A DNA stretch of 64,000 bases, taken from the NCBI GenBank assembly GCA_963971425.1, contig OZ020524.1, positions 10,233,845 through 10,297,844 of the forward strand. The letters run 5' to 3'. The stretch is from Bryoerythrophyllum caledonicum (Eukaryota > Streptophyta > Bryopsida > Pottiales > Pottiaceae). A program made the position numbers and the translations under genes. A model generated the notes under the pieces. That model was not told where the DNA came from and made no database searches. It worked only from the letters and a program-made list of their open reading frames with translations. Positions 1,328-44,378 of this stretch are shown piece after piece. How positions within the stretch are numbered: position 1 is the first letter of the stretch; each line of letters starts with the position of its first letter.

Positions 1328-1452
1328 GGCGTAATTCAACGCCAAACTAAGCCATAGCAACGTCACATAGTTAAGTAACGTCGGATTGACCTACATACGA
1401 AAAGTTTTTCTGCACAAGTTGTAGTTGAAGCACTTCATTTCTTGCAAGGGTC

Positions 1453-13508: not shown

Positions 13509-14026
13509 TCTTACAGAGTATCGCTGATCAACGATGATTCGGGTTCGAGGGGGTGTGATGAGACGAGGCCGAGGGCGGTTGCGGTCCTGCAGCTGTGAAC
13601 GTCGTCTCTACGGAATCAGAGATTAACTAGATAGGGTCATAGCGGGTGCACATCTCGACGTTTGAAGTGGTCCTCTAGCGCCATTTAATGGTCTGGATCT
13701 CCTTATGAAGAGAGGGTGCAAGTTAGGGCAGTTTAGGGCTATGTACATCCGGTCGCAAAGGTCGAGTCATCTGAAGATCAAGTCGGTGACGATCTGCAAC
13801 ACATTGGAGCGTTAACTGGGGTAGTGTCACGTAACGACAATGGAAGTTAGAGTATTAACAAGTAAGGCAGCGGAACTCAACGTCCGTGTACCAAAACACA
13901 AAACAAATAGGCGGAGGTATCTGCAGGATCCCATAGTCTGCGAGGTGGTATTAGGGTTAGTATTAGGGTTAGGGTTAGGAAGTAGCGCAAAGGAAGTGCG
14001 TGGCTGTTTAAGAAGCTACTAGCGCC

Positions 14027-14431
14027 ATGGCCAAACACATGCCTCAGCAACCTCCGCCACCACCACGCTCCTTCAATTCAATTGCGACTTCAAGCGCAGA
14101 TGCAGCACTCGGCGAGCCTAGGATAACAACTGCTTACAGTTTTGCCGAGGCACTCAAGGCGCATACTGCTCACGCTCCATTCAAATCATCAGCTTCGGAA
14201 AAAAAGAGGAAAGCAGAAGTGCTACTCAAGCATGAACTCCCGGAACCGGAGGTCGTAGCATCGATGGCACACCTGGGAAGTCACGCCGAACTCAACCCAT
14301 CCAAGGCAACCCCCGGTGAGATCCTCCCAGACTCCCTATTTTGTAGTGGTTCAGGGTTCCTGTTGTGCAGACAAGCTGCCCTTTCCACACTTGATGAAGA
14401 GAAGGTTTAGAAGGAAATGGAACATTTTCAA
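14027..14431 (+). pseudogene. LINE ORF1, N-terminal part
   Basis: ATG at 14027 is followed by a Pro-rich start and a reading frame to TAG at 14408. The frame then continues K-E-M-E-H-F-Q to the insertion point of the 12.6-kb transposon. With that element and one 9-bp duplication removed, the frame runs straight on at 27006. The TAG stands where a sense codon is needed and fits CAG to TAG. Known of the family: ORF1 of plant L1-like elements is an RNA-binding gag-like protein. The upstream 500 bp (13526-14026) is 5' UTR and includes a few TTAGGG-like hexamers near 13950-13980. Confidence 0.75.
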
Positions 14432-14440
14432 CGGGGGAAA

Positions 14441-14503
14441 GCTATTTTGCGAGCGCAGAAATGCGAGCGGAGAGCGGCGAGCCTTGGTTTGCGAGCGTAG
14501 AGC
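14441..14503 (+). repeat. Left terminal inverted repeat of the 12.6-kb transposon
   Basis: Begins GCTATTTTGCGAGCG and contains four spaced copies of GCGAGC. It pairs with 26928-26990. The repeated hexamer is a plausible transposase-binding motif (inference). Confidence 0.9.
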
Positions 14504-15391
14504 CTAAAAAAGTCGAGATTTAATACAAAAAGTAAAAGTATGGTGGAACTTTGAGTATAAAGTTAAAAAAATAAAAACCAAGGATTAGGATAGGGTCCTA
14601 TAGCCGTGGTCATTGGATCACATCTGGAGATTCAAATGTTGTCATGATGTACTACTTTGCTTCTTGAATTGAAATTAGAAGCGGGCTTGAGGTTGACATG
14701 GATAGTACTACCCTATGACCGTGGCCACATTTTGAGTAGAAGAAATCAATCGATTGAACCATAGTAGAGGAGCAAAGTTCAATTTCAAAATGAAATTTGC
14801 TTATATTTGGACAAGTTAGTGGATTTTTAAAGAGTTGGACTATAAAAACCAATTTTTTTGAAAAGGTTTGACAAAATAAGACAAAGTGCGCTTCTAAACA
14901 AAGGATGCAGAAGAAGAGAAATGTAGAGAATTCCTTACAATTGAGAATGTGGTATTAAAATGAATTTCAAAAGAGGGGAAAAAAGGCACCAGAATGAAGG
15001 GTTTTATTGCCAGTATTACTATAATACGAAGTTCGGGAGGATATGGGATTGGATCCGGTAGAATGCCTACATTGATGTATATATGTTTGTATGTATGTAT
15101 GAATGTATGTATTGAGATCTTAAAGAACGTAGGATGTACAAAATTTATTTTACAAAAAAGAGAAGAATTCTATTTAATGGATTATTGTCTTCGGCTTGAG
15201 CTCTTCAATTGAATGAAGTTGGATATTGTCATTCACCTTCTCAATCGAAGTGATGAATACAAAATAGTAAAAGCACAACAATGCAAGGCAATATTGGAAA
15301 AAAGTAAAAACTCAAAGAAAACATTGTTTATGGCCATGGATTGAATAGAAAATATAACTCAAAAAGAGGGAGCAATGAGGCTTGAGAAGAT
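14504..15391. other. Left subterminal non-coding part of the transposon
   Basis: AT-rich, with a TGTA microsatellite near 15078-15112. No gene seen. Confidence 0.5.
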
Positions 15392-16099
15392 CTAGAAATC
15401 GGAACTGTCGGAACTAGGTGACAAGATGTGTAAGTCTACTTTTGCCTCATCGTCAATATACCTACAAACATGTCTGTTAAAACGTAGAGGACGCGAAGAA
15501 GTCGGAGACGATGTCGATGCTTGTAAATTAGCGACTTCTGCATCCCATGGAGCCGTGACGAAGTCTTTGACGGGTGACACGGTAGCAGCCACTAGTCTGC
15601 AGTAGCATAATGCGGATCAGTAGATACGAATGAAAATTAGAACGGTCTAACAAAACGAGAAGGGAAATAAATGAGAACGTACTTACTCAAGCGGTTTCTT
15701 CGTGTGACTTGACGGATGGGAACATCAATATCAGGTGCAGTCCGAGCCGTTGAAGTAGAAGCCTGGATGGAAATGATCTCTTCGGTAGTCTTGAACAGTT
15801 TGAGCATTGCTTCAAAGACAAGGAAGTCATCCTCAAGGATAGCAATATGACGGCCAATGGTTGTGCAAGCCCGAATGGAATTTCCTAGTCACAAAAAAAA
15901 CATTCATCATGGGTAATCAAAGCAAAATTAGAAATAGACAATGAAAAACACAGTCCACCAGTACGTACCAACTGTGGCGGTAGTGTCGAGGACTACAGCT
16001 CCTCCCTTTGTCAGTGCCGTAATGAGCATTTGGAGGAAGACCGGGTCTTTTTCACAAGCCCTGTGAGCCGCAAAAATGGCTCACGATGATGAATGGACC

Positions 16100-17020
16100 A
16101 TGCATCATGTGCGTTAAGGTTAACAAATAGTAGAAATGGGTTATCCCATTGGATTAGCTCATGATTTTTGATCAAAATGGCCAAATAGCCATTTCATACA
16201 CTAATTCTTAAAATGGGAGCCACATTATGGCAACCAAGATTTTTATGGAGTTAACCAAAAAAATAAATAGAAAGAAAAAAATAAAGGAAAGGTTAAGAAA
16301 ATAAAAACAATAGAAAAAAAAATTAGAAATAGAAGGAGAGGAGAAGAATTTACCTCCTACCAAGTTGGGGACCGCAAAGTGGCCACGGTGAGGAAACCAC
16401 GGAAAAAAATGGGACAAGAGGAAGAATGATGGTGAGGAGAAAGAAAAAAGAATGAGGCTTTAAAAGCCATTAAAAAAAATAGTCAAAAGGGGTCCAAAAG
16501 ACTTGGGCAAAACCCTCACCAATCACTAAGTAAATTAGGCATAATCTCGAGCAAGGGGAATTCAAATTAGGTGGAGTAGGTAGATTTAGCATCCTTGAAT
16601 TAGCTAGATAGCTCACTTATTGGTGATCATGCGCACACCATGTGGCATAAGGTTAAATTATGAGATTTAAGTATTCCTTGGTTAGTGGGACACCCACTTT
16701 TGTTAGTGCAAGGGTGGCGCATAATTAATTAGTTATAGGTTAAAGGTTTTTTATGAAGAAGGTCATTTATGGAGGAAGGAAAAGGCGGCAGAGAACGACC
16801 TTGGGAATGCAAGGGGAGCAAAGGGCTTGGGGGGTTACCCCTTGGGAGACGCTCATTCGAAGTAGGGACTGTGGAAATATAGAGAGTGGACTGAAGGACG
16901 AGGAACTAAGGGGAAGAGAGCCGGAAGCCCCGGCTAGGAGAGATTGTGTTGTGAGAACGAGTAGAGCAGTGGAGGAAGACCGGAAGCCCTGGCGAGTGGT
17001 AGAAGAGCTGAATTAGGTCA
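16100..17020. other. Long intron or inserted DNA within the ParB-methyltransferase-like gene
   Basis: A/T-rich with A-runs at 16250-16460. No ORF or exon of the surrounding gene recognised. An undetected insertion is possible. Confidence 0.3.
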
Positions 17021-17024
17021 GACT

Positions 17025-17359
17025 AGGGCGAGGAAGAACACGAAGATCACGACTAAGAGCAAGACGAGCATCACGAACAGAGCAGGAGCACACGAAGAGG
17101 CGATCGCGAGCAGAAGGCGATCATAAGAAGACGATCACACCAGACCATGGCGAGGAAGAACACGATCACAAAGCACCAGACCAGGGCGAGGAAGAACACA
17201 AAGATCACGACTGAGAGCAAGACGAGCATCACGAATAGAGTAGGAGCACATGAAGAGGCGATCGCGAGCAGAAGGCAATCACAAGAAGACGATCACACCA
17301 GACCAGGGCAAGGAAGAACACGATCACGAAGCACCAGACCAGGGCAAGGAAGAACACCA
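17025..17359. repeat. 158-bp tandem repeat, two copies plus a partial third
   Basis: Units start at 17025, 17183 and 17341, each with AGGGCGAGGAAGAACAC or a close variant. They contain GCGATCGCGAGCAGAAGG. Copies differ at scattered bases. An ORF running through it is a by-product. Confidence 0.85.
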
Positions 17360-18140
17360 TCAAGGGCAGAGGGTGAATTGAACAAGATCAGGGAGCCCCT
17401 CCTCTCTCTCAGACTTGTTCATCATTCCCTTGTGCATGTGATAGGAAGGAACCCTAGTTTTGCTATGTACAACCATCGCGCGGAAGCGCTGCCCAAATTA
17501 CAATAGAATTAGGGTTTTCATCAACCTAAAAAAACCGGTTTTAATATATACAAGAAGTTAAACGCAACTGGAGGTATATGTATGGTAGGATGTTTGAGTA
17601 GGATTTCTTGTGTGAATGTGCCTGACATGCACGTGATGTATGGTGCATGGTTTTAAATAAACGTATGAGTTGAGTGTTGCATTGCTGGTCGCTTGGCTGT
17701 GAGTCGGAGGTTAAGTTGGAGGGATAATTGAATGTTGCCATTGCGTTAAGCACAAAAAAATAAGAAGGATACAAAAAAAAACATAAAAAACGAAGTTGTA
17801 ACCAAGAAGATAATGGGGACATGAATTCTGGTATCAAAGAAGAAGGTATGTCTGCTGTCAGCTGCTGTCAGGGTCGTACTTTGGTCTAAACTCAGCCTTT
17901 GAGGGTCTAATCAAGTTCATAAGCCAGGCTGAACCCATCTAAGCCAAAAAAAATTGAAATTGGAGCCCTAGGGCAAAACTTATGTGTGTTTGAAGTTCGG
18001 GACCAACTTAAGGCTGAATTCAGTCATCACAACGCCATTTGTCCACTAAAATCTCAAGTAACCACAACCTAAACCGCTATGACCCGTGCGTGGCATGTAT
18101 GGTTAGTTCCAATGGTGATTGCACACGGGGTTGTATCCCG
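17360..18140. other. Non-coding DNA, probably intronic
   Basis: Lies between exon 7 and exon 8 of the ParB-methyltransferase-like gene. No exon recognised. Confidence 0.3.
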
Positions 18141-21100
18141 GTTTTAGAGTCTTGTGTTCAAGATAAGCCACCCGCCTTGAAGCATTGTAAACCGCCCTAA
18201 AGCATTGAAGCAAACGTTAACTCCTGGGTTTCCAAAAGCAGTAAGAGGAAGGTCATTAATTCCCCACCACTTTCGATACAACTTGAAGTTACAGGCCGCC
18301 GCATATGAGAAGACGTCTGTTCGAATGTCAGGAACGTCTGGGGAAAAAACCAGCATGCCACCCTGTTTCTGGAGAAAATTCTCTACAAATTCGAACATGT
18401 AGTCCACATCTTTGACTGAGTACTCATTCCAGGGTAGAATGTAAGTTGCGTCCAAAGAGATTCCAGGAATAGGGAGGCCATCCTTCAAATCTGCCATAAT
18501 AAAATTGAATCCAGAATGTTTGTAGTGTAGGGAGAGTGCGGCACTTCCAGACTCTTTTTTCAACTGCAAACGATGCAAAAGATCAAAGAATGAGAAAAAA
18601 AAGGTGAGCATTAATCTTTGAAATGGAAAGAATGTATAATTAAAGGTTGAATGGATGGCGCCAATGCCGTGGAAGTAGTGTTCTACTGAGCAGAGACATG
18701 AATAAGTACCAGGGCGTAGTGGAGAGGCCGCCCAAATAAACGCCAAAAAAATAATTAACTTTAGAGAAATGACAACCGAAACTGAAGAGGGTGTCATTGA
18801 TAAATTATGCGGAGGGCGGCAAATGAAACAGATGATGAAAATCAATTCTGAAATTGATTGGAAGGACTCTACCTCAAGCCCGAAGTTGTTAAGCTTCATG
18901 AGGCACTCGTGAACTTCAGGTAGTTTCTCCATAATCTCACGTATGCTTGTGTGTTCCACCAAGATGGAAGAAGGATGAGTTATAGCACTGACAGCAGCTG
19001 ATGTACCTGTAGCCACCTTCTTCTTCAATTTCTGAGTAACTTAGGCCAAGGGACTGCACTCGCCTTGCAACTGTGACGACGGAGAGTGTAGGGTCCCGAT
19101 AGCAACATACGGCAATGGAAAGTCATCAACTCTGTCACTGACTTCCACGTTCACATCTATGTCCACGACAGGGAACGTCAATTCGTGAGCTGCCTGCTTC
19201 GCCGTCATCTTTGCAATCGTAGCTTCGGCAAGGCGCTTCATACTTGCTTTAGCTTCAACCGCGACAACCTTCAATTTCAGGGCAGTTTCAGCCTCCGATG
19301 CGGCTTTTGCCTCAAAATCAGCTTTCTCCTTCTTAGCCTTCTCTTCAGCAGCAACCTTCCTCTTCAATCCTTGAGGTTGCTTCACTGGCGCTGCCGTTTC
19401 AAGGGGTGGAACCTCAACTTTATTGCCTGCTAAATCTGGCTAGATGCGGTTCCTGAGTGCAACATCAAACGATGGTGGCTTTGTTAATGGGCAATCCAAG
19501 TACCACCCGGAGTTCTGCCAATGCTGATGAGTCCACTTCTTTGAGATGACATCTGTAATCATGCAACTTTCAGAATCTCGATCCAAATAGCTCTCAAAGA
19601 AAGCAGGCGTCTTCATTGTCGCCTTTCTTGGATAAAGAATGTAGAAGAAGTATCCGTAGATGACACGAGTCATGGCCTGTGAGAGTCCATCCTGCAACTC
19701 TGCATAGCGATTCTTGTGCACTCCCTTGGAACTCAACTCATCAAGAAACGCCAAGTCCCAAAGCTGAATTCGCATTCTCTCCACCCATACCTCAATCGTT
19801 GGAATGGCGCTTTCTCCAACTGGATGATAGTTAATCGAATCGCCGAGCTCAAATTATGTTGAATCAAACAAGGCCTTCACTTCAGATGAAGCTGCATATA
19901 CATAACAATGGATATTATAAAAAGAAATTCTAAATTTGATAATTCGAGGAATTAGAAACAGACCTGTGCCCACCAAGCCGCCTTTGTTAGCCAGCCAGGA
20001 AAGTTATGGTCCAGAAACTTGGCCTTCGGGAATTTCACAGCAGCTCGTAGGGAAGCTGGCTTGTTTCAACAATCCAACCATTTCACCTTGGTGCCGGCGC
20101 CCATCGCCGAGGTTGAAAAGTACCAAAGCTTTTCTTGAGTCATCTCTGGGTCATCCTCACGACTCTCATAATGAAGCCGCACTTGTTCTAGGAACTGAGG
20201 GGTGTGCTTGGGATCTGCAATCAGCAACTGCTTCTTCAGTTTGTTGCACATTTCTTTCTTCGCCTTCTTCACTGCCTTACCAATTGCCTTGTGCAGCTTA
20301 CCCGTTGTCCACTCTGATGACTTCTCTGGATACTTCTCTTGGAAAATTCGAGTTGCATGTGCCACCATATCACCAAGCTGTTGCTGTTAAACCATCAAAA
20401 ATATAGATTGACTGCCAGTGACTAGCAGAGGGAAAAAGTCAATGGTCGAGAGGCACCAATTCTGATGTACAACCTCTTTGAGGCAGCTGATAGCGGCTGC
20501 CCCAATGGAGTGCCTCATGGGTTGCAAATATCATACGAGGCAGACATAATGGTTACAAATACTCTGGAAAGGCAGAACAAGAAGAGACAGAGGTAATATT
20601 TTGTACCTGGTATAAAATCCCGACTAGTGAATCAATAGTCAATGTATACCAAGTATTTGGATTTATCTTGTGCTTCTTTTCCGCGTCTGCAATTTCCTCC
20701 TTGGAGACAAGGTCCTCGAAGTATTTGAGAGGCTGACCAGCAATTCCCTGGAGGCGATAGAGTTTATGCACGAGATTCGTTTTAACATGACCGGTTTGGT
20801 TTCGCTTGAACACTCCACAAGAACTTGATTAGCAAATTGATATTTAACTAAGACATGAAAGAGAAACAAAGTAAAATAATTACCAATTCACTTGGTGAAG
20901 TGCCGACAGAGGAAATCCAATTTGACCCTCAACATTTAACACGATTGACTCGACAGAATAGTGCCACCCTGGATCGTCATCATGATCATGATTAATTATA
21001 GGCATCGAAGCAGCAAGTCGATGATTGCCATCCCAAACGAAAAACATCTTCCCTGAAAACTGCTTCCATGCATTCTCACTCTACAGCTCCTGCTCGAATG

Positions 21101-21520
21101 CATCATTAGCGTTCTTCCATGCTTGACTCCACTTAGCTATGTCGCTAGCAGTCACATCCATCTCCTTTCGAAGATCCTCAGCGGACATCTCCTCTTGCTC
21201 CTCTGAATCTGCATCGTCCTGAGTAGCTTCACCATCCTGTGTCTCCAAAGTATCTTAACAAAAGAACACAAAACAATTCTGACGAAAGCTCCATACCAAT
21301 AATAACAACAATTATGCTTTAGAAAAAACACAATGACAAACGTGATTCAAGTATTTCAGGCTGCGGTAACTCCATCAGATCCTCAGATTGCATCAACCTA
21401 CTTGGCACCTCAGAAGGCTCATCCTCTGAAAAACAAGGGCTGTTAAAAAGAGGATAAATTAACCAAAACAAAACTTTACAACAACTATGCACATACAACA
21501 AAGATAGAATCGACAAAGTT

Positions 21521-22075
21521 GTGCTCAGGCTCGCTGTGGCCGTTGCCACACCCGCAAACGCCACCCCCGGCGAGGAGGCAGCCGCTGTCCGCGGCCTTCT
21601 TCGCCATGGCCATGCCCATGGCCATGGCCGTCGTCTAGACAGACGACGGTCATGGCCATGGCCACGGCGAAGAGGCTGCGCCCCTCCTCGCCATGGCCGT
21701 TGTGTGCTGCGGCGAGGAGGCGGAGCACCCTCCTCGCCGTGGCCGTCGTCGCTGCACACTACGGTCACCGCCACGGCCATGGCCATGGCGGTGGCCGTCG
21801 TCTGTAGCGACGACGGCCACGGCAAGGAGGCTACCGACAGCGGCCCCCTCCTCGCCGTGGCCGTTGTCCGCTGCAGCGTCAACGTCCACGGCGAGGAGGG
21901 GGAGTAGACTCCTCGCTATGGCCGTCGTCTCCAGCGATGACGACCATGGCCATGGCGAGGAGGGTTTCGGCCCTTCTCGCCATGGCCGTCGTCTTGACAG
22001 ACATTGGCCATGGCAAGGAGCCCACCGACAGCGACTGCCTCCTTGCCGTGGCCATCGTTTGTCAAGACGTCGTCT
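21521..22075. repeat. GC-rich minisatellite in intron 1 of the ParB-methyltransferase-like gene
   Basis: Degenerate repeats built on CTCCTCGCCATGGCCGTCGTC and GCCATGGCCATGG, in both orientations, fill most of intron 1 (22141-21426). The surroundings are AT-rich, so the contrast is sharp. All long ORFs here are low-complexity artefacts. Confidence 0.8.
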
Positions 22076-22782
22076 GCGACGAAGCAATCAATTGAAAACA
22101 CTACTTCATTACGTAATCCCAAATTCAAATTCGTGTCTTACCAACTGCGGTGCGGGTTGCGATCTCCATCTCAATGTCCACTACCTGCAGAACTTCACTT
22201 CCGCTCCTCGCCATGGCTGCAACTGCATGTGTTGCACGACAACAAGTTAGTTACTGACCTTCACACTAAGTTTGATGACCTACATCGTCTTCAACAACGG
22301 CGTTGCATTAAGCAAAGGAAAAAAAGACACCTCACTCATTTGCGCCTTGCTATCTTCACACAAACCCAAGTATAATCCAAAGGAGAAGTGGAGGACATAC
22401 TGTAGTATACACCAAGTAGCAATGAGTTCTTTCATTAGAACTTGGCGAGTTTATTATTTCATTCAATATGCATGGAATTCTCATTCTGAAAAGTTAAAAT
22501 GTTTAACGAGACTAAATTTTTATGGGCTGCTGATTGATCGTTTCTATGCACAAACACCCAGCATTAAGGTGGGACATCTAAAACATTAATCTGTTTCTGC
22601 GAACCCATCCGACATTCTAAAATTGTTTTGTTCAGTACCAGACATTGGTTCCGGGTGTATCACCTGATTGTCGAGAGGACTACTGTGATGGATATTGGCC
22701 ATTGATACGATCTGGTGTCGCATGAGTACTTTCAAATGCGCTTTCTCTCAAACTCAGCTTCTCCGGTTCTCCAAAAGTCTTT

Positions 22783-23001
22783 CTAGTCTCTACAGGACTG
22801 AGCACCTCTTCTTTCTAGACTATCCTCCATTGTTAGACAATTGATATCCGCTTCTTCGAATTCTAGTGCTTTTACAGTATCCCCAGAGTCTTCCACTCTA
22901 AAATAAGATCTCAACTTTCTCATCAGCCTCGACCTCTTCAACTGCTTTGGATTGGTAAGATACACAGCCTTTCTCTTTCGCCTTCTTGGCATATTACACA
23001 A
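22783..23001 (-). other. Possible small exon with a very basic, NLS-like start
   Basis: A 72-codon - strand ORF with M-P-R-R-R-K-R-K-A near its start and more Lys/Arg after it. It lies upstream of the ParB-methyltransferase-like gene and on the same strand. It could be a separate small gene or an upstream exon; no splice link was established. Confidence 0.25.
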
Positions 23002-23608
23002 GCATTCTGACTCTACTCGCTCTCAACATTACAAGCTTCTTTAGGCAGAATCCTTATGTAATAAGTTTTTGACGTTTGATTTCCATCTAGAAGGTGCACA
23101 AAAGCAAAGAAGATCTTTTTGTCATAATTGTCAACCTTTTTTGAAGATTTGGGCCTGATAAAAATAACTTCACTGCTGACAGCAATAACCGCACAAGTTC
23201 ATGCAATTTTTAAATCTGACTCTTTGAATCTATTGGGATATCGATATCGAATTTTTGGAAGTCGCCACTTTAGATTAACATACGTTGAGCACCACCTTCT
23301 TTTGTCATTCAAACTCTGTTGTACTGAATGAAGATATAATAGTTTAAACAATCTACAACGCAGTGCATTCATGTATTTTTAATTATCTATGGTCCTTGTC
23401 TTGCGCCTAATTAATTACTTGCAGGCCAATTAAGATCTAGCCCCCAACCGCCTATTTATCAAAGATTTCCTGGAATTGATTATTTTGTTGAGCACCTTGT
23501 TGAATCAACTTGATAAACTCACACTTCTCAAATGGAGTCCCCTTTAATCTTTAGAGTAACCTTCACTTTATCGTTTTCTTCATCATAGATTCTTCTCATG
23601 CGTAGGAA
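23002..23608. other. Intergenic region between the two transposon genes
   Basis: AT-rich. I searched it for the missing N-terminal part of the transposase (first catalytic aspartates) and saw none. Confidence 0.4.
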
Positions 23609-26185
23609 ATGGCTTCTGATCTTGTTGACATTTCTGAATGCGTTCTAATTAGATCAGATGATCATTCAATTCTGATTTCATTTCCTCTAGGTGCAGATGG
23701 ATTCTCCACTATCGCTAGCAGTCGTCTTGCATCGCGGTTTTATATTTTAGAGAGTTCTCTGCATGTAGACAAGGAAGTTCTAGACGCGGGGTCAAAGACA
23801 GTGCGTATTCTGTACGGTAGTGGAGACTCCACACTGCCAATGGAGAACCGCGAGAGGACTTGCCTATTTCACTGGACACAATCACTAGAGAAGCACACTA
23901 AAGCGGACATCAAGGCCGACCTTCAAGACCAACATCGCCGTCTCTGCAAGGATTACAAAAATTCTATATCTTTTGAAGAGGCCCAGGGTCGATACCTGGC
24001 AATCCGAGCATGGTGGTTGTCATCTGGTGCGGCAACGGAGGAAGCGCTTTCAAGATTCGATTTATGGCTTGCTTTTTGGCATTTCAGATACCGACAATGG
24101 GGCGGATTCATGCAACTTGTAAGTTCTTTTGCACTGTTTTTCCTGTGCATATTTTCATTCTAGTAAATTTAATGGCTTCCAAGTTTTACATTGTTTTCTC
24201 TTATGTTTAGTTATTTTACCTTCTGCTATCGTAGGAAAATTCATAGTTCTTATTCACTTTCAACATATTTTAGTTTTTTGCCCTACTACGTTAGTTCGGC
24301 ACTGTGTTGCTTAGCCAATTGAACTTTTTCAATCTTTGTTGCTCCTGTGCCTACATTTGCATTTCAATTTTTATTTTTATTTAAAAAAAAAAATTATTCA
24401 TGTTTTCTTGGCAATATATGTTTTCTGGGTTTCTTCCTCGCCTAATTATGAGCAGTCGATATCGGCTACCTATTCAATGTAATTTCTTTTCCGTCCATCT
24501 TTCTATGAAATACAAGCCGCCGACATCGGCTGCTTGTAAGAGCTCCGCATGATGTAGCAATTAATTTTTTTGTGAATGAATGATTCTACAGGAGACCAAT
24601 CAAGAGGTGTTGCCGATATGGGCTCCGATCTACCACGATTTTTCCTACTCTACTGTTGTCTTTATGCATCTTTCACTAGAACTTACTGGATAGAACCAAA
24701 GAAAATTCGCAAAGTCCTTTCTGATCTATCTTCCTCATTGCAGGATCTTTCTAATGCCGAGCTTGCAGAAATGCCGTCCTGCAATTTGGCCGAGACAGTT
24801 CACAACAAATGGCTGCAACAATCCAACAAAAAAAGGAACAATCTCTATGTAGCCGCTGTTGATGACATGGTCCGCGCATTCATGCAGGTTGTTGCGTACT
24901 ATCACTTTCTCCAAGGTGAGAAGCCCGGAACTGGTCCTGACAAAGACGAACTTCGACTCCGTATTGCCCATCGTATCGCTCAACGCACTAGCAATGCAAA
25001 AGCTCTTCAAGCAACTCTCGCTAGAATGCCTGGTGCAGACAAAATATGCACCCGGGATCCCCACCTGGAAGGTGAAGAAGAATTCCTTTCTTTGAAACAA
25101 AAAGCAGACCTTCCTCCTGGCTCAGAATTTGATTCTCATCGCCCTGATAAGATTAGTGTCTCCCGTCCACGACTTAGGAGACGACGAGATGACCTAAAGA
25201 TCGTTGATCTCACAATTGACGACTTTGATTCGCCACCTAAGCCAATTCCTCCTCCAGCCGCGGTTGATTCCTTTGAAAGTCCTACTATTTTGCCTCTTGT
25301 TCATCACGTGAAATCTATTCAAGAGACTGCTTGCGACGAGGGGCTGTGGCACATCGCAAGGCTCCTAAAGACCTCAGCAAAAGCTTTCTTTGCCATGCAT
25401 GGACGAAAGAAATGTGTTGCTAAGATTGTGCAAGGGGGACGACCTACGGCTGCTCCTACTTATACTGGCCTCATAGACAATTACAAGAAGACTAGAATGG
25501 ATAAGATGAGTTCTTCTTCTGTAGAGATGATATCCATCGTTGTGTCCATAGTTCTAAACGACCGTGGGTCGTTTCAAAACCCCCTATCCCAGATATTTGG
25601 TCAGTGAAGATAGGCACAAATCTTAGCAAATCGGAGATACTCGCTCTTAAGGGCAGCGACTTTAGACTTGTTGAGCGTGTACAGATGTCTCCTTGCCAGT
25701 TCTTTGGTGAGGGCGTTTCCGTGAACCTGTCGGACTACCCTCCACCCCCCAATCGTTCAGACCATCCCACTACAAGATTCGGGAAGGCCGTCCGTAGGAA
25801 TCCTACAGCGCCTACTACTAAGCATCACAACAGTTGTGCCTCGGCGCTATCACTAGCCGCAAAGATCTCTGACATTCTTATGGTACCGCCTCATGCTCTA
25901 GGCTGCATTGTTACTTTACAATCCAGTAGCATTTCGAAGGTTTCACGATATATGTTGACGATTGGCCAGTTCCCGTCTTGTGATTGTCCATCTTTTACTG
26001 AGATGTCAAAGAAATCACTAGGCAAACGCAGTGCGTGGACCTACTGCAAGCACCTTTACTATATCTTTACCATAGTATGTGGATTAGACGAAAACGTCGA
26101 TGTCTTCATGCACTCTCCTAGTTTCAGTTGGAATGAGATCAAGCGAGTCCCCCAGATTCTCCTCCTAATACACTACGATGTTTGA
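23609..26185 (+). pseudogene. Mutator-like transposase-like gene, C-terminal part with SWIM finger
   Basis: Exon 1 (23609-24118) is followed by GT-AG intron 24119-24591; exon 2 starts at 24592 and runs to about 26185. Exon 1 contains E-R-T-C-L-F-H-W, the CX2H seen between the second Asp and the Glu of Mutator/hAT DDE transposases, then a Trp-rich helix region. Exon 2 holds N-L-A-E-T-V-H-N-K-W-L-Q-Q-S, then a SWIM zinc finger (C-D-C, 19 residues, C-K-H) near 25980-26050. SWIM fingers are typical of Mutator transposases. The reading frame shifts at about 24650 and again near 25520, so the copy is broken. The first two catalytic Asp residues were not found; either the gene is truncated or the exon was missed. 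It is transcribed away from the ParB-methyltransferase-like gene. Confidence 0.65.
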
Positions 26186-26927
26186 GTATATTTCAGAACT
26201 CTTCGTTTTGTTTTATTCTACTAGTATAAATATTGCAGTGAGACTAAAAGGGCCACCAAAACTTTTTTTTCTTGTGTAGTTTCTTCTATTTCGCAAAAGA
26301 ATGGTGGAATGGATGTGCGGTGTACATGGGTATCATAGTAGTGTGTTGTTATTTGGATTCGCAACTCCGCTCTATATCCATTCACTTTCGCTGTCACTCT
26401 CAAACACTCTAACCTTACATGATTTCCATCACACTTCTCGTGAATCGCACCTATACTTTACCCTAATCGTTTTGCATCTCCACACCATCACCGTCTAGCT
26501 CTCTCTGACCCTAATCCTTAAAACCATACGGAGCCTTTATTCGGGCTATGTCCTCGTTGCTCCATAATACTCCTCCCCCCCTAAACCATTTTCCTTTATC
26601 CACCTCAATTGTGTTCCCGCTACCAATTTCCTTTCCGCTCTCTCTCTCTACCGATTAAACCTGAATTCTCCTTCATCTTCTCAGCCCCAGAAATCCTATC
26701 TTTTCATCATTGCACAACCGTATCTCCACGGTTATAGGCCTTCTTCCTCAAGATTTGCAATTTCTCTTTCTCGTGCACACGTATTGTCCAAAATGATTTT
26801 GGCAAGCCCGATGTTTTAGCCACCAAATCCATGGTAATAGGACCCTGTATATACTACATTAAGTGATTTTTTTCCTTCTTAAACATTATAAACCTTAAAT
26901 TTTTCCTAGACTCTTCCTACTTTTTGT
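26186..26927. other. Right subterminal non-coding part of the transposon
   Basis: C/T-rich on the + strand around 26370-26720. No gene seen. Confidence 0.5.
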
Positions 26928-26990
26928 GCTATACGCTCGCAAACCAAGGCTCGCCGCTCTCTGCTCGCGACTCTACGCTCACAAAATAGC
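26928..26990 (-). repeat. Right terminal inverted repeat of the 12.6-kb transposon
   Basis: Its complement begins GCTATTTTGTGAGCG and matches 14441-14503 at 56 of 63 positions. Confidence 0.9.
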
Positions 26991-27005
26991 CTCATCCATT
27001 TCCAA

Positions 27006-28640
27006 TGTAACACAATGATCGCATATTTCGTTGGAGGAAAGTCAAGGTGGGATATCGTTCCAGCATGGCTAGCGGCACTTTCAAGAGACGCCCAGGCGGA
27101 AAACTCATTTGGGCGCAACGTAGGCAATGGATTCTTCCAAATCATCACAAAAGATGTATGCGCTACTCAACAACTGCTCATGCTCACCCCACACATCTCA
27201 AGGTGGGGTACGTGCATGCTCCAACCATGGGTAGCGGGATTTGATCCTAGTACTCCTATCCAAGCACAGATGCCCGTATGGATCACACTCAAGGCCGTGC
27301 CAGATGAGATGCGTAGCAATATACATGACATAGCCAGGTGCATAGGGAGAGTTGTGGATAAGCATCGAGGCAACCGGTACTTAGCTGATCAAAAGTTTTG
27401 CGTCAATGTCGACACGTCAAAGCCGTTTGTCATTAACATCAATGTCACGAATCCCCTCTCAGGCGAAATGGTGTCATTGGCAAATGATTATAATAATCTC
27501 CCAATGCGGTGTAGACATTGCTTGTCTACTTACATTTGGTGAAGGACTGTCGCGCGCCGCAGAATCAAAAGACAAGACAACAACAGAGACAACAAGGGTC
27601 AAGAGCGCCTCACTCCACTGCGGAGCGCATCTCAGGCAGAGCGCTGCATGCGAGACAGCCCATGAGTGCCAAATAGAGAGCTCCAGCTGAACAGAGTGCT
27701 CCAATGAATGACGTGGGTCCAGCATAGGGAGCGGAGGCGCAAGTAGTCATCGAGAGCCCTGATTTTCAGCCTACACAAGAACAAGTGCCGCCTCCTCTAC
27801 CTCCGAGAACAGTACTAGTACACCCTGCCCGTACAGCGCCGAGGTAAGCAGCTGAAGCCGAGACTGTGACAACAAGACTATAGGACCGAAGCCAAGACCG
27901 TGCCACATCGACCTCCAAAGACTGGAAAAGTGTTCAAGTTAGGGAGCTAAGGAGGAGTCTTAAAGTACACATGCACGTTGCAGGTGTGAGTAAGGAGAAG
28001 CATAGGAAAGCGAGGGAGCCTCAATCTAAGACGAGAGAAAGACAGGCAGCCACTATCGCTAATGGATCGATACTCCAGTCACGCAACTTGCAAGCTGGAG
28101 ACCCGGCGGAAGCATCCCAGTCGGAGGACCAGGACACTGGTTCGTCGGCTGACTTAGGGGTGCTAGAATTCGCCCCAAGCCGTGCGAGCGCGGAAGTAGC
28201 CGCGTATACAATTGCCGGCTTTTCATCGTCGGAAGGGGCTAACGGCTGCTCGCTGGCACATCAGAGGAAGCACTCGGCAGTGACAGCCTCCCAGGAGAAG
28301 ACCAACACCCCAACCATAGAGGTGAGGCAACCGACAACCTGACTTGTAGGAGAGAATTCTCGACTAACAGGGAGAGATTTGGACGACCTCACCCTGGAAT
28401 TGGTAGACGCACAAGGAGCACAAGAGTTCTCGGGTGGCCACAAGAAGAAGAGTACGTAGTGCGCCGGCCCCTGCTTTTATTGAATCGGTCTACAGAGAGT
28501 GGATTAGAGATCAAGGTTGGAACGACGAGCTGGAGGCAAGCCCAATAGGCAAGTCCCGCTCATCCACCCGACCAAACAGATAACAACATCTTGACCTATA
28601 CCACGTTCACCCGAACAAATTTGTAAGGTTCAAATCGCTG
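27006..28640 (+). pseudogene. LINE ORF1, main part
   Basis: Continues the frame broken at 14431. It has M-I-A-Y-F-V-G-G, G-N-G-F-F-Q-I and W-G-T-C-M-L-Q-P-W-V-A-G-F-D-P, the layout of the DUF4283 domain in gag-like ORF1 of plant LINEs. A zinc knuckle follows (C-R-H-C, with the second half displaced by a frameshift near 27530). The C-terminal region to about 28440 is broken into pieces with many charged residues. Inactive. Confidence 0.7.
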
Positions 28641-30835: not shown

Positions 30836-30950
30836 AGTTGCGTGTAAAAAAAATTACAAACCCTAAATCAAATTTTCAACTTGTCCCCTAGTAAAACACG
30901 CGTGCACGACACGTCAGACGACTTTCCACGTCACACCAAGGGGCGGGCGC

Positions 30951-31230
30951 GTGCCTTCGGACCGCGCGCGCAGAATTTGGGGTCGGGCGCGTACCAATTT
31001 GGACCGGGCGCATTCATGTAGGGCCGGGCGCGTACCACTCAGGGCCGGGCGCGTGCATATCAGGGTCGGGCGCATACGCGTCAGGGCCGGGCGCGTACCA
31101 CTTAGGGCCGGGCGCGTACCCCTCAAGGCTGGGCGTGTGCATATCAGGGCCGGGCGCGTACCCCTTTGGGTCGGGCGCGTACCGTCAAGGTTGGGCGCGT
31201 ACCGTTAGGGGCCGGGCGCGCAGCGTTACG
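30951..31230 (+). repeat. 21-bp tandem array, left outer
   Basis: Units such as GGGCCGGGCGCGTACCACTC, one base short of the 21-bp period, repeat about a dozen times with substitutions. Because 21 is divisible by three, long artefactual ORFs run through it. Confidence 0.85.
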
Positions 31231-31555
31231 GGCGTGGCACGTATCGTTGTGGGTCGCGAGCGCACCTGCCTATCGGGCGTGCGCTGTTAGGGGCCGCACG
31301 CGCGCTTATGGGGAGCGTTTGCGCCTCATAAGGGCTGAGGTAGAAAGAATTTGAAAGAATACAATTGTACAAGGGTGATCCAACCTTAAAATTATTTATT
31401 TCAATGTGGTGCCTTCATGAATGGGCACTCTCAACTCCAAGTACATATTTTAAGCCACGGTACTATTGTACCATGCAATCACCACACCACTAAATGTAGT
31501 TTTAACTTGTAGTACCCTCGTGTCCGCATATGGTTCTTATATAGTGCTGGAGCCG

Positions 31556-31880
31556 GAGCATCTGGGGCCGGGCGTGCACAAGGGGGACCGCGCGCGTACT
31601 CTATGTGGCCGGGCGCGCACGCTGTGAGGTCGGGCGCACACAATGTGCGGCCGTGCGCGTACTCTATGTGGCCGGGCGCGCACGCTGTGAGGCCGTGCGC
31701 GTACTCTATGTGGCCGGGCGCGCACGTTGTGGGCCAAAAGCGCACCGGCCTGCGCGCGTATGCGAGAGGGCTGCGCGTGTACGCGAGACGGCTGCGAGCG
31801 ATTGCGATGGGGCTGCACGCATACCAGATGGGGCTGCGCGCGTACGCGACGGGGCTGGTTCCGGCGCGTTCGAGTAGGGT
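31556..31880 (+). repeat. 21-bp-type tandem array, left inner
   Basis: Units of the form GGCCGGGCGCGCACGCTGTG, same orientation as the left outer array. No true ORF. Confidence 0.8.
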
Positions 31881-32688
31881 CGGGCATACACATTTCTGGA
31901 TCAAGCACCTACCTAGTGGAGAGAACTTGACATACTCTAATTTCCAAAATTCCATTTCTGACATGTAGAAATGCCAATGTCAACTTCAATCAAGTTTACA
32001 TGACGGGTCATCTACATAAAATTACTAATTTGCAATTTCCATGAATTCTATAAAAGTAAAAATTGCATAAAGTGGGTAGATTGGGTTTGTATATAGCAAT
32101 TTTTTTCTGTGTTACAATATATTACTACAATTTTGGCACTATTAAAATTTAGTGAATTTATTTGGTTGGCTCAAATGATTTGACTTCTATCTTCCAGAAA
32201 TCTATGAGCATGTACTGAAAATTTGATTTACATACAAAGAAATCATAAACAATCCAATATTTTTGAAATGTTCAAGGAAAGTAGTCAAACACTATAATGT
32301 TTTAAAAACATCTTCTAAAAACGTTATTAACACAATACTTATACCTACTTAATGATTTTTTGGGGAGAGTTAGTACCTTCAATTAGCATGGGAAATGATT
32401 TGTATGGCAAACTTATACTCATATTAAGATATAATATGGATAATTTGTATGGTAGAATGCCATCTCTTATCATTTTGGAAGGCCGTCGCAATTGGTTATA
32501 TATAATTCAACCAAGAATAATAATGTTGCATTAATATTGGGGATTTTGTTACATCCCAAATCATTTATTATGTTGGTAAGTAACATGATTTTTATTGTTT
32601 AGTCTTATGATTTACATGTTTGAGACAAAAGTTTAAGTTTTATTTCTTCAACACATGACATAAATTCCACTACAAAAAAATTCTCGAT
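31881..32688. other. AT-rich interior of the hAT-type element
   Basis: No ORF or exon recognised. Confidence 0.4.
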
Positions 32689-32693: not shown

Positions 32694-33794
32694 TGTGAAG
32701 CATAAAATCGAGATAGTTAAAAATAACTATTACTCAGCGAGTTCGTCCCTAGGGAACTGAAAGTTATGTTCTGCCGTAATATTAGTGTCACTATTATATG
32801 TAATTGTGGTCCGTAATCCTTACGAAGCCTTAATTTAACACCATAATCCGTTAATAATCCTCTAATTCGAGTGCCATTAAATCTTCCATTGCATCCTCCA
32901 CATCCAAGTGCAAGTACTCTGCTCTTCCTGTAGCTTCCGTTTCCTCGTACTCACCGATGTTCCATTCCATTGCTTCTTCTATTGTCATCGGTTCAGCGGG
33001 AATTCCGTTCTTCTCCTCTTCCGTTCCGTACCTCATTAACCAGGTATAATCTTCTTCTCGTAATCTCGCTCCTATCTCCGTTCTTTGATTTGCCCGGATC
33101 CGTATGTAAATCTCGTGGTCGATCCTCTCCTTCTCCACGCGGTTTACAACCGTCACTCTTTCCTTATCGCTGTTCAACCATCCATACTTCAAATTCAACC
33201 AACACCTGAATGCCTTGAATTTCTCCTCGTCCGTTAGTTCCAATCCTGACATTAATTCATCTTCATAATCTGATTATGAATTATGTTCAATTCAGCACAC
33301 TTTTATTCTGATCATTATTTGATCGCTCTATTATCTACCACCTAAATTAACCCGCAATTGCGGTCCTCAGATTTATTTTCGTATCAGTTTCTTATGATTC
33401 TCGTTCTCTCGATTCACTCATCTCTCACTCTCGGTGTCATTGATTTACTTTCAATTGACTTCATTCACAATGTAATCTTTCTTAAATCTTCAATGTGCAC
33501 AACTTCAATTACATTAAATTCCGGAAACAATACAGCAAAGAAAAAAATAAAGAGATAGCACAACGCGTATCTCGGCACTACAACTGATCAACACAATTGG
33601 GCCTTGTCCCAGTTTCAAAAACTCCAACTTAAACCTCCGCAACTCCCAACTGTCTATCCTTTCACCGCAACCGACACCCCTTCCGATCTCAAGTCCGTTA
33701 GAAACCCTGAACTTAAGCTCCTAAACCTGTAACTAACTAACTTTAACTACAAAAAAGGGTTAACTCAAAAAGAAAGACTATTCTACGTTCTACA
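32694..33794 (-). repeat. Gypsy 3' LTR (1101 bp)
   Basis: Matches 42047-43147 except for two transitions near 33608 and 33657. It contains the LTR-encoded ORF. Confidence 0.95.
32851..33252 (-). CDS. LTR-encoded acidic ORF, 133 aa (3' copy)
   Basis: An uninterrupted ORF in the sense direction of the element, wholly inside the LTR, identical to 42204-42605. It starts M-S-G-L-E-L-T-D-E-E-K-F-K and is rich in Glu, with M-R-Y-G-T-E-E-E-K-N-G and a Leu/Glu-rich end. No family recognised and no signal peptide or membrane segment. Whether it is translated is unknown. It stays open for 133 codons in a TE whose other ORFs carry several stops. Confidence 0.45.
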   Translation of the reverse strand: MSGLELTDEEKFKAFRCWLNLKYGWLNSDKERVTVVNRVEKERIDHEIYIRIRANQRTEIGARLREEDYTWLMRYGTEEEKNGIPAEPMTIEEAMEWNIGEYEETEATGRAEYLHLDVEDAMEDLMALELEDY

Positions 33795-33805
33795 TAGCCC
33801 CACTC

Positions 33806-35482
33806 CTATTGTGCAGCGTCCTCGCAAACATGGTAGATCTCTGGACGACTATCGGTACGCGGGACTTCGGTGACGTCCTCCTCTTCGTCGGTCTGTTCCG
33901 TTGCGTTCGGCTCCGTCTCTAGAGGGGATACGGTCGCTTCCTTCTACTCACGGCTAAGTGGTTCATCGTCCTCCGTTTCTGAATCTGAACCCTCTGCCTC
34001 CAGGTCCATGATCTTCTGAGACAACTCATCGTTGAAGTTGCCCAGCTGACGGACCTGATCCTCCAACTCCAAAATGCGTCTATCCTTCCGCTGCATTCCG
34101 TTTGCCTCCGCAGTCTCCGTCTCACCGGTCGCAGCCACCACCTGTACAGTACTAGGGTTCCGTAACTGAATTTCCAGTGACGTTACCTTGTCCGTTAGCG
34201 CTTGGTTCTCCACCCGTAAGCTGTGCCGTAGCTTCGCCTGTTCGTCCATAATAGACGCCTTATCCTTCCGTAGCACATTGACCTCCGTCCGTTCCTTCTC
34301 CAGCGCCTCCCGCAAGACCGTCTGCTCCGTATCCCCGATGCTCTTGAGGCTCGATACAGTCTTGATCTTCTCTTGCAGAACCGCAATCTGCTTCTTGAGT
34401 GCGTCGCACTGCCCCTCCAACTGCACCTTCTCCTGCAAAGCTGCGTTGCGACTCCGTGTCGCAAGACTCGCCATAGCCCGGGCATCGGCTAGTGCCTTCT
34501 CCATGGCGCCCACATCCGCCATACCCATCACGGTTTCCCTGAACAGATCTAGCTGCACCATCAGCTTCTGCTTCACGTCGTACTCCTCCATGCTCGTCTG
34601 CCCTTCCGTACGAGTCCGCTCGTCCGTCTCTATGCCCGATGCTAGCTGCTTCCCCTTCTCTTTATACGTTCTCACGGGAGTTGGCACATCATCTTCCTCC
34701 TCCGTTTCGTCAAGCGATATTACCTGTTGCACTCTCGGTTTCGGAGTTCACCCTGGAGTCGACAGCTCCCTGCTGGGTCGCTTCAGTTCGTTGAGCAACG
34801 TCCTACGGATGATGTTGCTCACGTAATTGGAGCACAACAGCGCTCCCATCCTCCCCGATCGCCGCTTCATTCCGAGCTCGTTGTGAATACGGTTGTTCAC
34901 GTACGCCGCCTAGTTCATCTGCATACCTCGGAGCGTTGCCACAACTGCATACAAAATCTTCCGTGGCACGTACGTCGAATGTCGAAGAATGGCCAACCGC
35001 TTCGCCGCGAAGCGCATCCACTACACCAGCTCCGGTGTCAATGCGTCGGCCGCTCTCCATCCTTGCTTGGGATCCATTGCGTCCTGTCCCGACTTGAATT
35101 GCTCTTCCGGGATGAAATCGTCCGACACCACCGTGCCGTTGTTCACCGCCACCTCGCTGATTGGCAAGTAACAATGCTCGTGCAATGTCGCTTGATCCAC
35201 CACGATCTCCACGCCCTTCACCGTACTCGTCCCATCCACCACGTCGTAGTTCTGCACATACTCCTTCACCAGCGCCTCGTCTATGTCTGGTAAGGATTGT
35301 GAGAACTTCACGAACCCATATATGTCGGCCTGCTTCAACTCTCGCTGAATCTCTACAGACCAGCAAGCCTCCAGCCGAATTGGCTCCATATTAGTCACTA
35401 CTACGAACGACATGGGCGGAATCTCCTCCTTCCGCTTCACATTGCGGCTCTCTCTCACAGGTGTTCTTTTCTGCTTTGCCAT
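33806..35482 (-). pseudogene. Gypsy extra 3' ORF (ORFx): plant-transposon-protein-like domain plus coiled coil
   Basis: One reading frame of about 559 codons from ATG at 35482 to TAG at 33808-33806, 11 bp before the LTR. It is interrupted by TAG at 35021, TAG at 34910, TGA at 34748 and TAG at 33944, each fitting CAG to TAG or CGA to TGA. The N-terminus is basic. The middle part has helical Y-V-P-R-K-I-L-Y-A-V-V-A-T-L-R-G and resembles the putative plant transposon protein domain of plant Gypsy elements. The C-terminal part (34732-33950) is a long coiled coil, then acidic. The related element at 50548-54268 has the same layout. Position matches the env-like ORF of Athila, but no membrane segment is seen. 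Function unknown. Confidence 0.65.
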
Positions 35483-35792
35483 GACCACTACTTGCTCACC
35501 GCTCTTTCACTCCTAAACCCTTGCGCACACACTTTCTCTCAACACACACACACTCACGCAAACTCACAACATGTCTGGACAGCCCCACTCCTAAATATTT
35601 GCCCGTAATGAACTTCAGAGTGACGCCACCTTTTCCCTCCTATAACACTCATTGTGTACCCGTTATGATGTTCATGCGTTATGATGTCCACTCGCACGTT
35701 TTTAATGATGCTACGCCGTCATTTACTCACTCAATTCTCCTATGACTTGACTTCTTAAGTACTGTAGGCTACCTACATACCCTCCCCTCCAA

Positions 35793-38700: not shown

Positions 38701-39669
38701 ACTACTAACCATCGTGACATCGTAAGTATTCATCCATTTTGCTATAGCATGATCCGAATTATCGATATCAAATTGACCTATAATATATTCTCCCGGTTGT
38801 CCACATTGATAAACCAAATTAAATCCTTGTTGTCTTTCGGAACGTTCCCCAAATATTGATTCCAGTTCCTCCAGATCTTCAGATGAACACCCGCTGATAT
38901 CTATTTCAGAGGTGACCTCCGTCAGTGGTACCTGTGATTCCCCATGATACTTCACTCGGTAAATCTGTAATACTATCTTCTCACGTCCTCTTCCAAGGGT
39001 TAAAGTACCCTTTCCCCAATCATTCTTAGCTTTTGCATTGTATAACCAAGGGCGTCCTAATAAGATAGGATAAGATGAAGCCGAACGGGGTAATTTAAAT
39101 ACCACATAGTCGATATTAAACTTGTGTCCCGCAATAGTAGTCAAAATATTTCGGACCACGCCGACGGGTTTTACTCTACTATGATCCGCCATCCTCAGTG
39201 GTAAGGCTGTAGGTGATATGGAGGTTAGGCCTAAAGTTTCTGCAGTTGCACCCGTCATCAGATTCACACTCGACCCGCCATCCACTTGAACTCCCGTTAC
39301 CAATACTCCGTCAATGGAGACATCGATCATCGGGGCTCCTGGGTCAGGATTTAAAGCCACTTCATGGATATCCTTATTCCGTATTAGCGATGCATTGAGT
39401 GCAGTTCTACAGTCCGGTGCAATTGCCAACAATTGCCTCATTGAAATACTTGGTCGAATTTCATCCAGATCCTTCATAATATCATACTGTTGTAGATTTG
39501 CGGATATGCCCAACTGTTTCCTTTTTCTCTTTACTTTATCCGTTCCTCTTTTGGGGATCCATTCCTTTAATAAGGGTAGTGATGCTGGCAATACGGAGCT
39601 TTCCTTCTGTACTTTCGTGTCCAGGTGAGAGTCCGTAACCACTTGTGTAGGTTCTGGAAGTACTGGCAC
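35793..39669 (-). pseudogene. Gypsy pol: protease, reverse transcriptase, RNase H, integrase
   Basis: First piece 39669-37570 (699 aa): aspartic protease with V-D-G-G-S-S near residue 130, reverse transcriptase with F-L-D-G-F-S-G-Y-N-Q near 515 and M-E-I-F-L-D-D-F near 577. Second piece 37565-35793 (590 aa): RNase H with Y-V-D-A-S-D, then an integrase with the H-H-C-C finger ending C-D-P-C-Q, D-F-V-G-P, S-D-R-G-T-H-F and the catalytic Glu in G-Q-T-E-K-T-N-G. The two pieces are split by one extra T in a T run at about 37573-37577. Gag and the first piece share one frame, separated only by a TAG at 39688. No chromodomain follows the integrase. Confidence 0.92.
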
Positions 39670-39687
39670 ATCGGTGTTGATGGTCCT

Positions 39688-41961: not shown

Positions 41962-42017
41962 AATCTTCTCCTAACATTTCCAACATATTACACATAATTT
42001 TCTTAATATTTACAATT

Positions 42018-42044
42018 TTATCAGTTCCCCGGCAGCGGCGCCAA
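42018..42044 (-). promoter_or_regulatory. Gypsy primer-binding site
   Basis: Next to the 5' LTR, the - strand reads TGGCGCCGCTGCCGGGGA. It closely matches the tRNA-Asp-type primer site reported for Athila-like plant elements; the tRNA assignment is inferred. Confidence 0.6.
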
Positions 42045-42046
42045 AA

Positions 42047-43547: not shown

Positions 43548-43960
43548 TCCTTTTCTTGGAGTAGTGCACGTAATTTTTGAAGTTCTTATTTGTTGCGGCT
43601 GGCTTCTTCTACTAGATTCTTGTTTTCTTGTAACCTCTGCTCATATTTAGCAAGAAGTTGAAGATGAGCCTTTCGGCCTGGAATTGGAACATCATTAGAA
43701 GCCTCTAGGTTTTCATTGATGTTCTTGTATGCAACCGCGTTACCGCGTCCATCTCAATCGGATCTTCTTCCTTGCCGGAATCTTCTCCAATTGTCGGTGT
43801 TTCTTGGAGGGCACAATCTAGCCAGTGGCATTTAATAAAGCCTTCAATCTCCTTGCAAAAAGTTGAGTCGCACCTAGTGTCCGAGTCCTCATTGGAAGTG
43901 TCAGACCACACGACTTCCTTGTTTGGAACTTCAACCTCGTTTGGTGCGCATGCCCTCCAA
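43548..43960 (-). pseudogene. Coiled-coil protein remnant inside the hAT-type element
   Basis: On the - strand an acidic stretch (about 43960-43740, with E-V-V-W-S-D-T-S-N-E-D) is followed in another frame by a heptad-like Glu/Lys/Leu stretch (43730-43548, with L-A-K-Y-E-Q-R-L-Q-E-N). One in-frame TAA fits a CAA codon. It may be the tail of a gene once carried by the hAT-type element. No family recognised; an intron or frameshift must separate the two parts. Confidence 0.3.
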
Positions 43961-43964
43961 AGGC

Positions 43965-44215: not shown

Positions 44216-44378
44216 TTTGAAGTTCCGGACGCTTGCTTCCGCTACGAGATATAGCAATTTTGACTTAGCGTATTGATAGTGAAGGAAAATTGTTGATCAT
44301 CTTGCAATATGTACTAGCATTGTGATGTAGACATTTTCCTCCCCGCAAACTCGGTCAACGCCACCATGGCAGGTGTGG

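Follow-up and report, generated by a model that had tools for sequence, protein, structure and literature searches.

A Mutator-like transposon family of Bryoerythrophyllum caledonicum whose second gene codes for a ParB-fold and methyltransferase-like protein

The elements MuDR, with the gene mudrB, and VANDAL21/Hiun, with the genes vanB and vanC, are described as possessing terminal inverted repeats (TIRs), target duplications of 8–11 bp and a DDE transposase, often with a SWIM finger, accompanied by a second gene (PMC6446971, PMC5735166). An element of the same architecture is located at positions 14434–26997 of a 64,000-nt stretch from Bryoerythrophyllum caledonicum (Bryopsida, Pottiaceae; assembly GCA_963971425.1, contig OZ020524.1, positions 10,233,845–10,297,844), hereafter the window. 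It is a decayed copy of a Mutator-like element (MULE) and differs from MuDR and VANDAL21 in that its second gene codes for a protein combining a ParB-fold domain with a methyltransferase-like domain, which can be likened to VANC and mudrB by role only.

Chains carrying both folds are known as ParB-CTPase–N6_N4 methyltransferase (PF01555) fusions of phages and prophages, where they are reported to be frequent, while the commonest eukaryotic ParB fold in the same ParB-CTPase survey was sulfiredoxin (PMC12704722). Unlike those fusions, the protein described here is encoded in a eukaryotic DNA transposon by a gene of ten exons and has a long middle part and a degenerate motif IV. Methyltransferase domains have also been described in other eukaryotic transposons, namely KnitGypsy-Dnmt3, SymbioDIRS-Dnmt3 and DIRS elements with an adenine methylase (PMC5890265), but these belong to the retrotransposons and their enzymes are of the C5 or Dam type, whereas here a DNA transposon carries a permuted N6/N4-type domain together with ParB. 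The words "ParB" and "methyltransferase" are both missing from the main text of a survey of 1,631 MULEs (PMC6446971), and among the top-ranked titles and abstracts listed from the open-licence PMC literature none describes a MULE with a gene of the ParB or ParB-methyltransferase kind.

Copies of the element and conservation of the second gene

The 437-Mb assembly, consisting of 894 contigs, was searched with the 80-nt left end of the element, which resulted in at least 41 matches including the window itself (40 of 306 candidates were scored). The sequence lying 10 kb inward was retrieved for 20 of the 40 other matches, and all 20 contain the second gene, whole or partial, with exon 8 recognised in every copy, exon 7 in 18 and the ParB exon in eight. 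Truncation, insertion, decay or the 10-kb limit accounts for the 12 copies where the ParB exon was not found; six of these (L023–L028) constitute a stop-ridden subfamily in which only exons 6–8, and once exon 9, were recognised. As the query end adjoins the 3′ end of the second gene, copies deleted on that side may have been missed. Seven copies were extended, of which five have both TIRs and two have no second TIR within 15 kb.

The hallmark of MULEs, TIRs flanked by a duplication of 8–11 bp, was found in six elements with 70-nt TIRs, five of them having a target duplication that is perfect over at least 10 bp and the sixth, the window copy, an imperfect one matching at 8 of 10 positions. An earlier note on this DNA, made from the sequence alone, had reported 63-bp terminal repeats and a 9-bp duplication (CATTTTCAA/CATTTCCAA, identical at 8 of 9 positions); the inverted repeats and the duplication are indeed there, but the paired arms are 70 nt long and 87% complementary, and the duplication covers 10 bp in the register of the five other copies.

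With the ParB exon as a query, at least 150 matches were obtained (the best 150 of 1,763 candidates), ranging from 100% to 63% identity, and 106 of these best 150 have no stop within the match according to a hand count. Nine of the listed matches have an equal score, which suggests recent amplification. The transposase core gave at least 86 matches (the best of 3,046 candidates), seven of them with one common score. Among the listed matches there are 11 transposase–ParB pairs within 20 kb, as against 0–4 (mean 1.2) in twenty shifted controls; eight pairs are divergent at a distance of 3.4–7.1 kb, and of the three at 15–18 kb one is divergent and two are oriented otherwise. Most of the listed transposase matches have no partner among the listed ParB matches. 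For one such partnerless group the adjoining 3 kb were found to hold a divergent ParB-side relative, with 30% identity over 488 amino acids (aa) to the C1 copy and 47% to P0129, the methyltransferase end falling outside the stretch, and the group of nine equal-score ParB matches adjoins a transposase on the opposite strand (68% over the covered part, and 72%). Read at the sequence level, the divergent two-gene layout is kept in both further subfamilies checked. In five further ParB subfamily copies exon 7 is present throughout, and exons 8–9 were recognised in three (L038, L039, L042), the other two ending or diverging earlier. Viral contigs were searched as well and gave no match.

The copies on C1 and C14 can be read through ten exons as 1,146 codons without a stop, with AG and GT borders at exons 2–9, and hand splicing of the window copy agrees with these and other less damaged copies, in line with the spliced minus-strand gene proposed earlier. 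No AG acceptor precedes exon 10 in the C1 and C14 copies, and in the C4 copy its conserved frame lacks one too; the nearest AG leads to an immediate stop, giving a protein of about 1,075 residues that ends in RRNRLN after exon 9. The exon-10 frame is nonetheless conserved, with a ratio of nonsynonymous to synonymous substitution rates (dN/dS) of 0.35 over 65 codons. Three other complete copies carry one, two and one stops, respectively, and the last also has two altered splice borders.

All dN/dS values were calculated with codons containing stops or gaps removed. Between the C1 copy and the distant C4 copy (L022 with L035) the ratio is 0.18 over 1,050 codons at dS 0.70, and since the C4 copy is decayed this value is raised. 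By exon, it is 0.08 for the ParB exon, 0.08 for exon 4, 0.12 for exon 5, 0.23 for exon 6, 0.21 for exon 7 and 0.26 for exons 8–9, with 0.87 for exons 1–2, which comprise only 39 poorly aligned codons. Comparison with the window copy gives 0.40, as expected of a relaxed pseudogene. These ratios indicate that the second gene is under purifying selection between copies.

Gene capture is frequent in MULEs (PMC6446971), so a host or bacterial gene hitch-hiking in the manner of Pack-MULE cargo has to be considered, and the earlier note had indeed called the gene the cargo of one transposon. Its presence in all 20 copies examined, none of which lacked it entirely, the ParB-side relative (30% identity) next to a different transposase group and the purifying selection all argue against this, and capture is very improbable. 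Instead, the family is a large one of two-gene MULEs, in which this second gene is conserved.

Domains of the second protein and of the transposase

The structure of the ParB exon was read on the homologue P0090, which is 72% identical to the C1 copy, rather than on the window copy itself, and it folds confidently with a predicted local distance difference test score (pLDDT) of 89. The leading matches of the P0090 fold search are ParB, Noc, PadC, SerK and sulfiredoxin. Rows 1–30 from Foldseek are ParB-fold chains throughout, though with weak E-values, and ranks 1–19 from VIA are ParB folds except for an unnamed archaeal protein at rank 14, with an SMC hinge following at rank 20; the ParB match that the earlier note had asked fold searches to confirm was thus retrieved by both. 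The exon-wise homologue search yielded 40 proteins, in the alignment of which the P-motif (Box II) D-G-N-H-R occupies columns at least 90% conserved, and the DGNHR signature noted before is present in the window copy. Judging from this model, exon 3 encodes a ParB/Srx-fold domain with the P-motif DGNHR. The coiled coil named in the earlier note is a putative one, read by eye.

Sequence searches of Pfam, NCBIfam and PDB, run either with the ParB profile or with individual sequences, yielded nothing usable, rows with beta-lactamase and cytochrome b562 being probably chance. A full-length search with the decayed protein found nothing at E≤1 among 7,992 candidates, probably on account of the length filter, given that the proteins in the database seem to be single exons. 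DndB and other DGQHR-type proteins are related to ParB, DndB having a DGxHR box; one of the 40 ParB-exon homologues matches Pfam DndB with an E-value of 0.0059, a weak match of a single member.

The methyltransferase-like domain is weakly matched by PHROG methyltransferase families in the decayed window protein (E 0.0017–0.12) and in the C1 copy (E 0.012–0.12), while three other subfamilies give significant matches, with E-values of 1.3e-7 and 1.8e-6 (L038), 7.2e-7 and 2.3e-5 (L039) and 3.5e-4 (L042), the matches spanning the motif I half of the domain. A Pfam scan of the C1 copy domain gave no match above the cut-off, and the sole NCBIfam match is a DNA methyltransferase at motif I with an E-value of 0.15. 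In the phage collection 398 records were found at E≤10, the best listed E-value being 1e-3, and among the 25 listed the match falls on a methylase or methyltransferase in all 21 annotated ones; one match spans 91% of the domain with 22% identity (E 0.03), and two of the matched phage proteins belong to PF01555 (E 1e-24 and 3.7e-24). Profile–profile comparison with phage methylases, made with profiles of only four and two members, gave a probability of 95.1 and a score of 58.5 over 185 columns, compared to no more than 0.85% and 19.0 in 60 column shuffles and 0.1% and 12.4 for the reversed profile. Both the PHROG matches and the profile–profile alignment bear out the permuted order, motif IV before motif I, that had been pointed out earlier within this N6/N4-type domain. 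Taken together, these comparisons indicate that the domain is a relative of permuted N6/N4 DNA methyltransferases at the family level.

It is doubtful that the resemblances to ParB and methyltransferases are chance ones in a transposon protein of unrelated fold. The lack of Pfam matches for single sequences and the weak Foldseek E-values would fit such a view, but the uniform run of ParB folds at the top of both structural searches and the shuffled methyltransferase profiles, which reach at most one third of the real score, leave it with hardly any likelihood.

Canonical methyltransferase motifs are designated here by their usual names. Motif I is kept as VLDAFASVGN and variants. At motif IV the copies have D-[LI]-[KP]-D, with DLKN found once and decayed copies showing NVKD or YVKD, and this position is aligned with D-L-P-F of phages; the catalytic pattern (D/N/S)PP(Y/F/W) is not present, the aromatic residue being lost in every copy read and the proline mostly absent. 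Earlier candidates for motif IV, DATY and IPxW, were dropped after the profile alignment placed it at D-[LI]-[KP]-D. Without this aromatic residue the protein is expected to have scarcely any classical catalytic activity, if any at all, and the degenerate motif makes such catalysis doubtful. Of the former methyltransferase claim the family-level homology therefore stands, with a significant match, but not an intact active site, and "methyltransferase-like" appears apt where "methylase" would overstate. An active enzyme marking the element's DNA at N6-adenine or N4-cytosine against silencing or nucleases, as in phages, would agree with the conserved S-adenosylmethionine (SAM)-site half, which matches phage DNA methylases, and has a parallel in the adenine methyltransferases known from DIRS retrotransposons (PMC5890265); the altered motif IV makes it unlikely.

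The homologue P0125 continues in frame from its ParB exon into a sequence that resembles a portion of the methyltransferase-like exon, which may be an independent hint that the two domains go together.

The transposase was modelled on P0064 (pLDDT 70.6, predicted template modelling score 0.44) and shows a core of three strands, a helix and a strand. ISCth4, an IS256-type transposase and kin to Mutator, is the best structural match, with a root-mean-square deviation of 9.5 over 164 residues and agreement limited to the core; unlike the present elements, it consists of a single short protein. Residues D417, D483 and C..HW are nearly invariant, as is N-L-A-E in the second exon, and in our reading of the model some of these acids may be catalytic. 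The model indicates that the transposase has a DDE/RNase H-like core, found in P0064 and gone from the window copy. The SWIM-type finger attributed to this gene earlier, CxCx(n)CxH, is read as CDC...CKH in the window and occurs likewise in P0001 and P0016. Pfam MULE and transposase profiles gave no match at E≤10 in eight transposase homologues, which divergence may explain.

The window copy and its neighbourhood

The coordinates of the element are listed in Table 1. Its second gene, as read from the exons, is a pseudogene interrupted by five in-frame stops, with 240 nt deleted from the ParB exon and 1 nt from exon 6. In place of the 5′ portion of exon 8 and some of intron 7, about 280 nt in the C1 copy, it has a segment of about 2.1 kb. 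An explanation of all the stops as C-to-T changes was rejected, only two of the five fitting it, and a sixth apparent stop sits in misaligned exon 8.

Table 1 Features of the Mutator-like element in the window
Feature	Position	Strand	Remarks
Left target-site duplication	14424–14433	.	ATTTTCAACG; 10 bp, 8/10 identical to the right one; register from five other copies
Left TIR	14434–14510	+	paired arm 14441–14510
Small open frame at 3′ end (exon 10 or 3′ untranslated region)	15391–15591	-	conserved; MAATVSP...SSDSSDF in relatives; acceptor uncertain
Exon 9	15687–15884	-	remainder of motif I, GRHIAILEDD
Exon 8, surviving 3′ part	15969–16060	-	EKDPVF..., VVLDTTATV, motif I
Replacing segment with 158-nt tandem repeat	16062–18202	.	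stands where the C1 copy has about 280 nt
Exon 7	18222–18563	-	methyltransferase-like domain; motif IV position DLKD at 18480–18491
Exon 6	18873–19891	-	helical-looking and basic (KRK) region; three in-frame stops, 1-nt deletion
Exon 5	19964–20383	-	one in-frame stop
Exon 4	20607–20823	-	
Exon 3	20884–21253	-	ParB-fold domain, DGNHR at 21018–21032; 240 nt missing near 21180 compared to C1; one stop
Exon 2	21342–21425	-	
G+C-rich repeat array with GGCCATGGC	21540–22080	.	inside intron 1
Exon 1	22142–22214	-	carries the start codon
Transposase exon 1	23609–24118	+	1,803 nt (DDE core) missing at about 23800/23801
Transposase second exon region	24592–26185	+	start read by hand, uncertain; NLAETVHN; SWIM finger 25979–26053; frame break near 25508
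Right TIR	26921–26997	-	paired arm 26921–26990
Right target-site duplication	26998–27007	.	ATTTCCAATG; 8/10 identical to the left one

The flanking open reading frames (ORFs) at 14012–14410 and 26910–27542 (plus strand) become one frame once joined without one copy of the duplication, with one stop close to the junction on its left side, and the sequence flanking on the right has a weak resemblance to DUF4283 (E 1.9e-4, below the cut-off). The element is likely, if not proved, to have been inserted into ORF1 of a long interspersed nuclear element (LINE)-like sequence.

Several other elements are present in the window. A retroelement at 58630–62478 (minus strand) codes for a C5 cytosine DNA methylase (PF00145, E 1e-13), an integrase (H2C2, rve) and a C-terminal PHD finger, with an aspartyl protease match too weak for the cut-off (E 0.0016) and no reverse transcriptase domain in the three ORFs scanned; it is comparable to KnitGypsy-Dnmt3 as described (PMC5890265). 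In our reading, a Gypsy-like element with gag and pol ORFs lies at 32851–42626 (minus strand), where an identical 140-aa ORF at 32851–33273 and 42204–42626 suggests near-identical long terminal repeats, and a Copia-type polyprotein of 1,433 aa is encoded without interruption at 1429–5730 (plus strand). Low-complexity repeats rich in Pro, Gly, Ala and Arg, open on both strands, occupy 30895–31979 and 43705–45104. The chlorophyll a/b-binding family has 58 matches in the genome, as befits a host of the green lineage, including close clusters on C7, C4 and C1 on both strands and with equal scores.

Possible function and significance

As the second gene is conserved across the copies, it can be regarded as the standard second gene of these elements and plausibly as an analogue of VANC or mudrB. 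It is rather probable that the second protein acts on the DNA of its own element, either against silencing or in aid of transposition, and of these two an anti-silencing role is possible, on the analogy with VANC, without reaching an even chance.

A potential target is the repeat array in intron 1. This intron can be mapped in seven copies, in which it is 352–716 nt long with the array, and the occurrences of GGCCATGGC lying inside it are 5/5, 13/13, 13/13, 7/9, 12/12, 6/6 and 12/12; intron 1 of the eighth copy, on C4, is not mappable. VANC proteins are reported to bind tandem-repeat motifs in non-coding VANDAL DNA, including the introns of VANC itself (PMC5735166), and the analogy suggests the intron-1 array as a putative binding site of the second protein. 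A perfect 22-nt palindrome considered as a binding site is absent from the genome.

The second protein would enter the nucleus, perhaps by means of the basic stretch SKRKA, which the C1 copy shares with four of the five further subfamily copies, and would bind the DNA of its own element, perhaps at its own intron-1 array. Loading onto DNA, dependent on a nucleotide, would be the task of the ParB domain, while the methyltransferase-like domain would be a putative DNA- or SAM-binding reader or weak modifier, the outcome being that silencing by the host is countered, which is likelier, or that transposition is helped, in the manner of VANC of VANDAL or mudrB of MuDR.

A part of the probability given above to the protein's acting on its own element belongs to a role as a transposition accessory only, pairing or protecting the transposon ends in the manner of mudrB or an end-binding protein. 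mudrB is apparently required for integration (PMC6446971), and the divergent two-gene layout extends to distant groups; the array, however, is located in intron 1 and not at the ends, and such an accessory role is itself putative, which leaves this alternative somewhat unlikely. For the preferred reading, a protein acting on its own element, a more specific and still tentative form can be proposed, according to which the transposon superfamily would have taken over a phage-type ParB-methyltransferase and long kept it, alongside the transposase as a constant partner, as a nucleotide-switched clamp and SAM reader on its own array, shielding or marking the element against silencing.

A ParB fold joined to a methyltransferase-like domain is conserved here in a nuclear mobile element with at least 150 copies, and these elements seem to have been amplified recently. 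The family would be a second candidate for transposon-encoded anti-silencing after VANC and points to a possible route by which phage-type genes may enter eukaryotic mobile elements, and it raises the question of whether CTP-type clamps operate in nuclei of the plant lineage.

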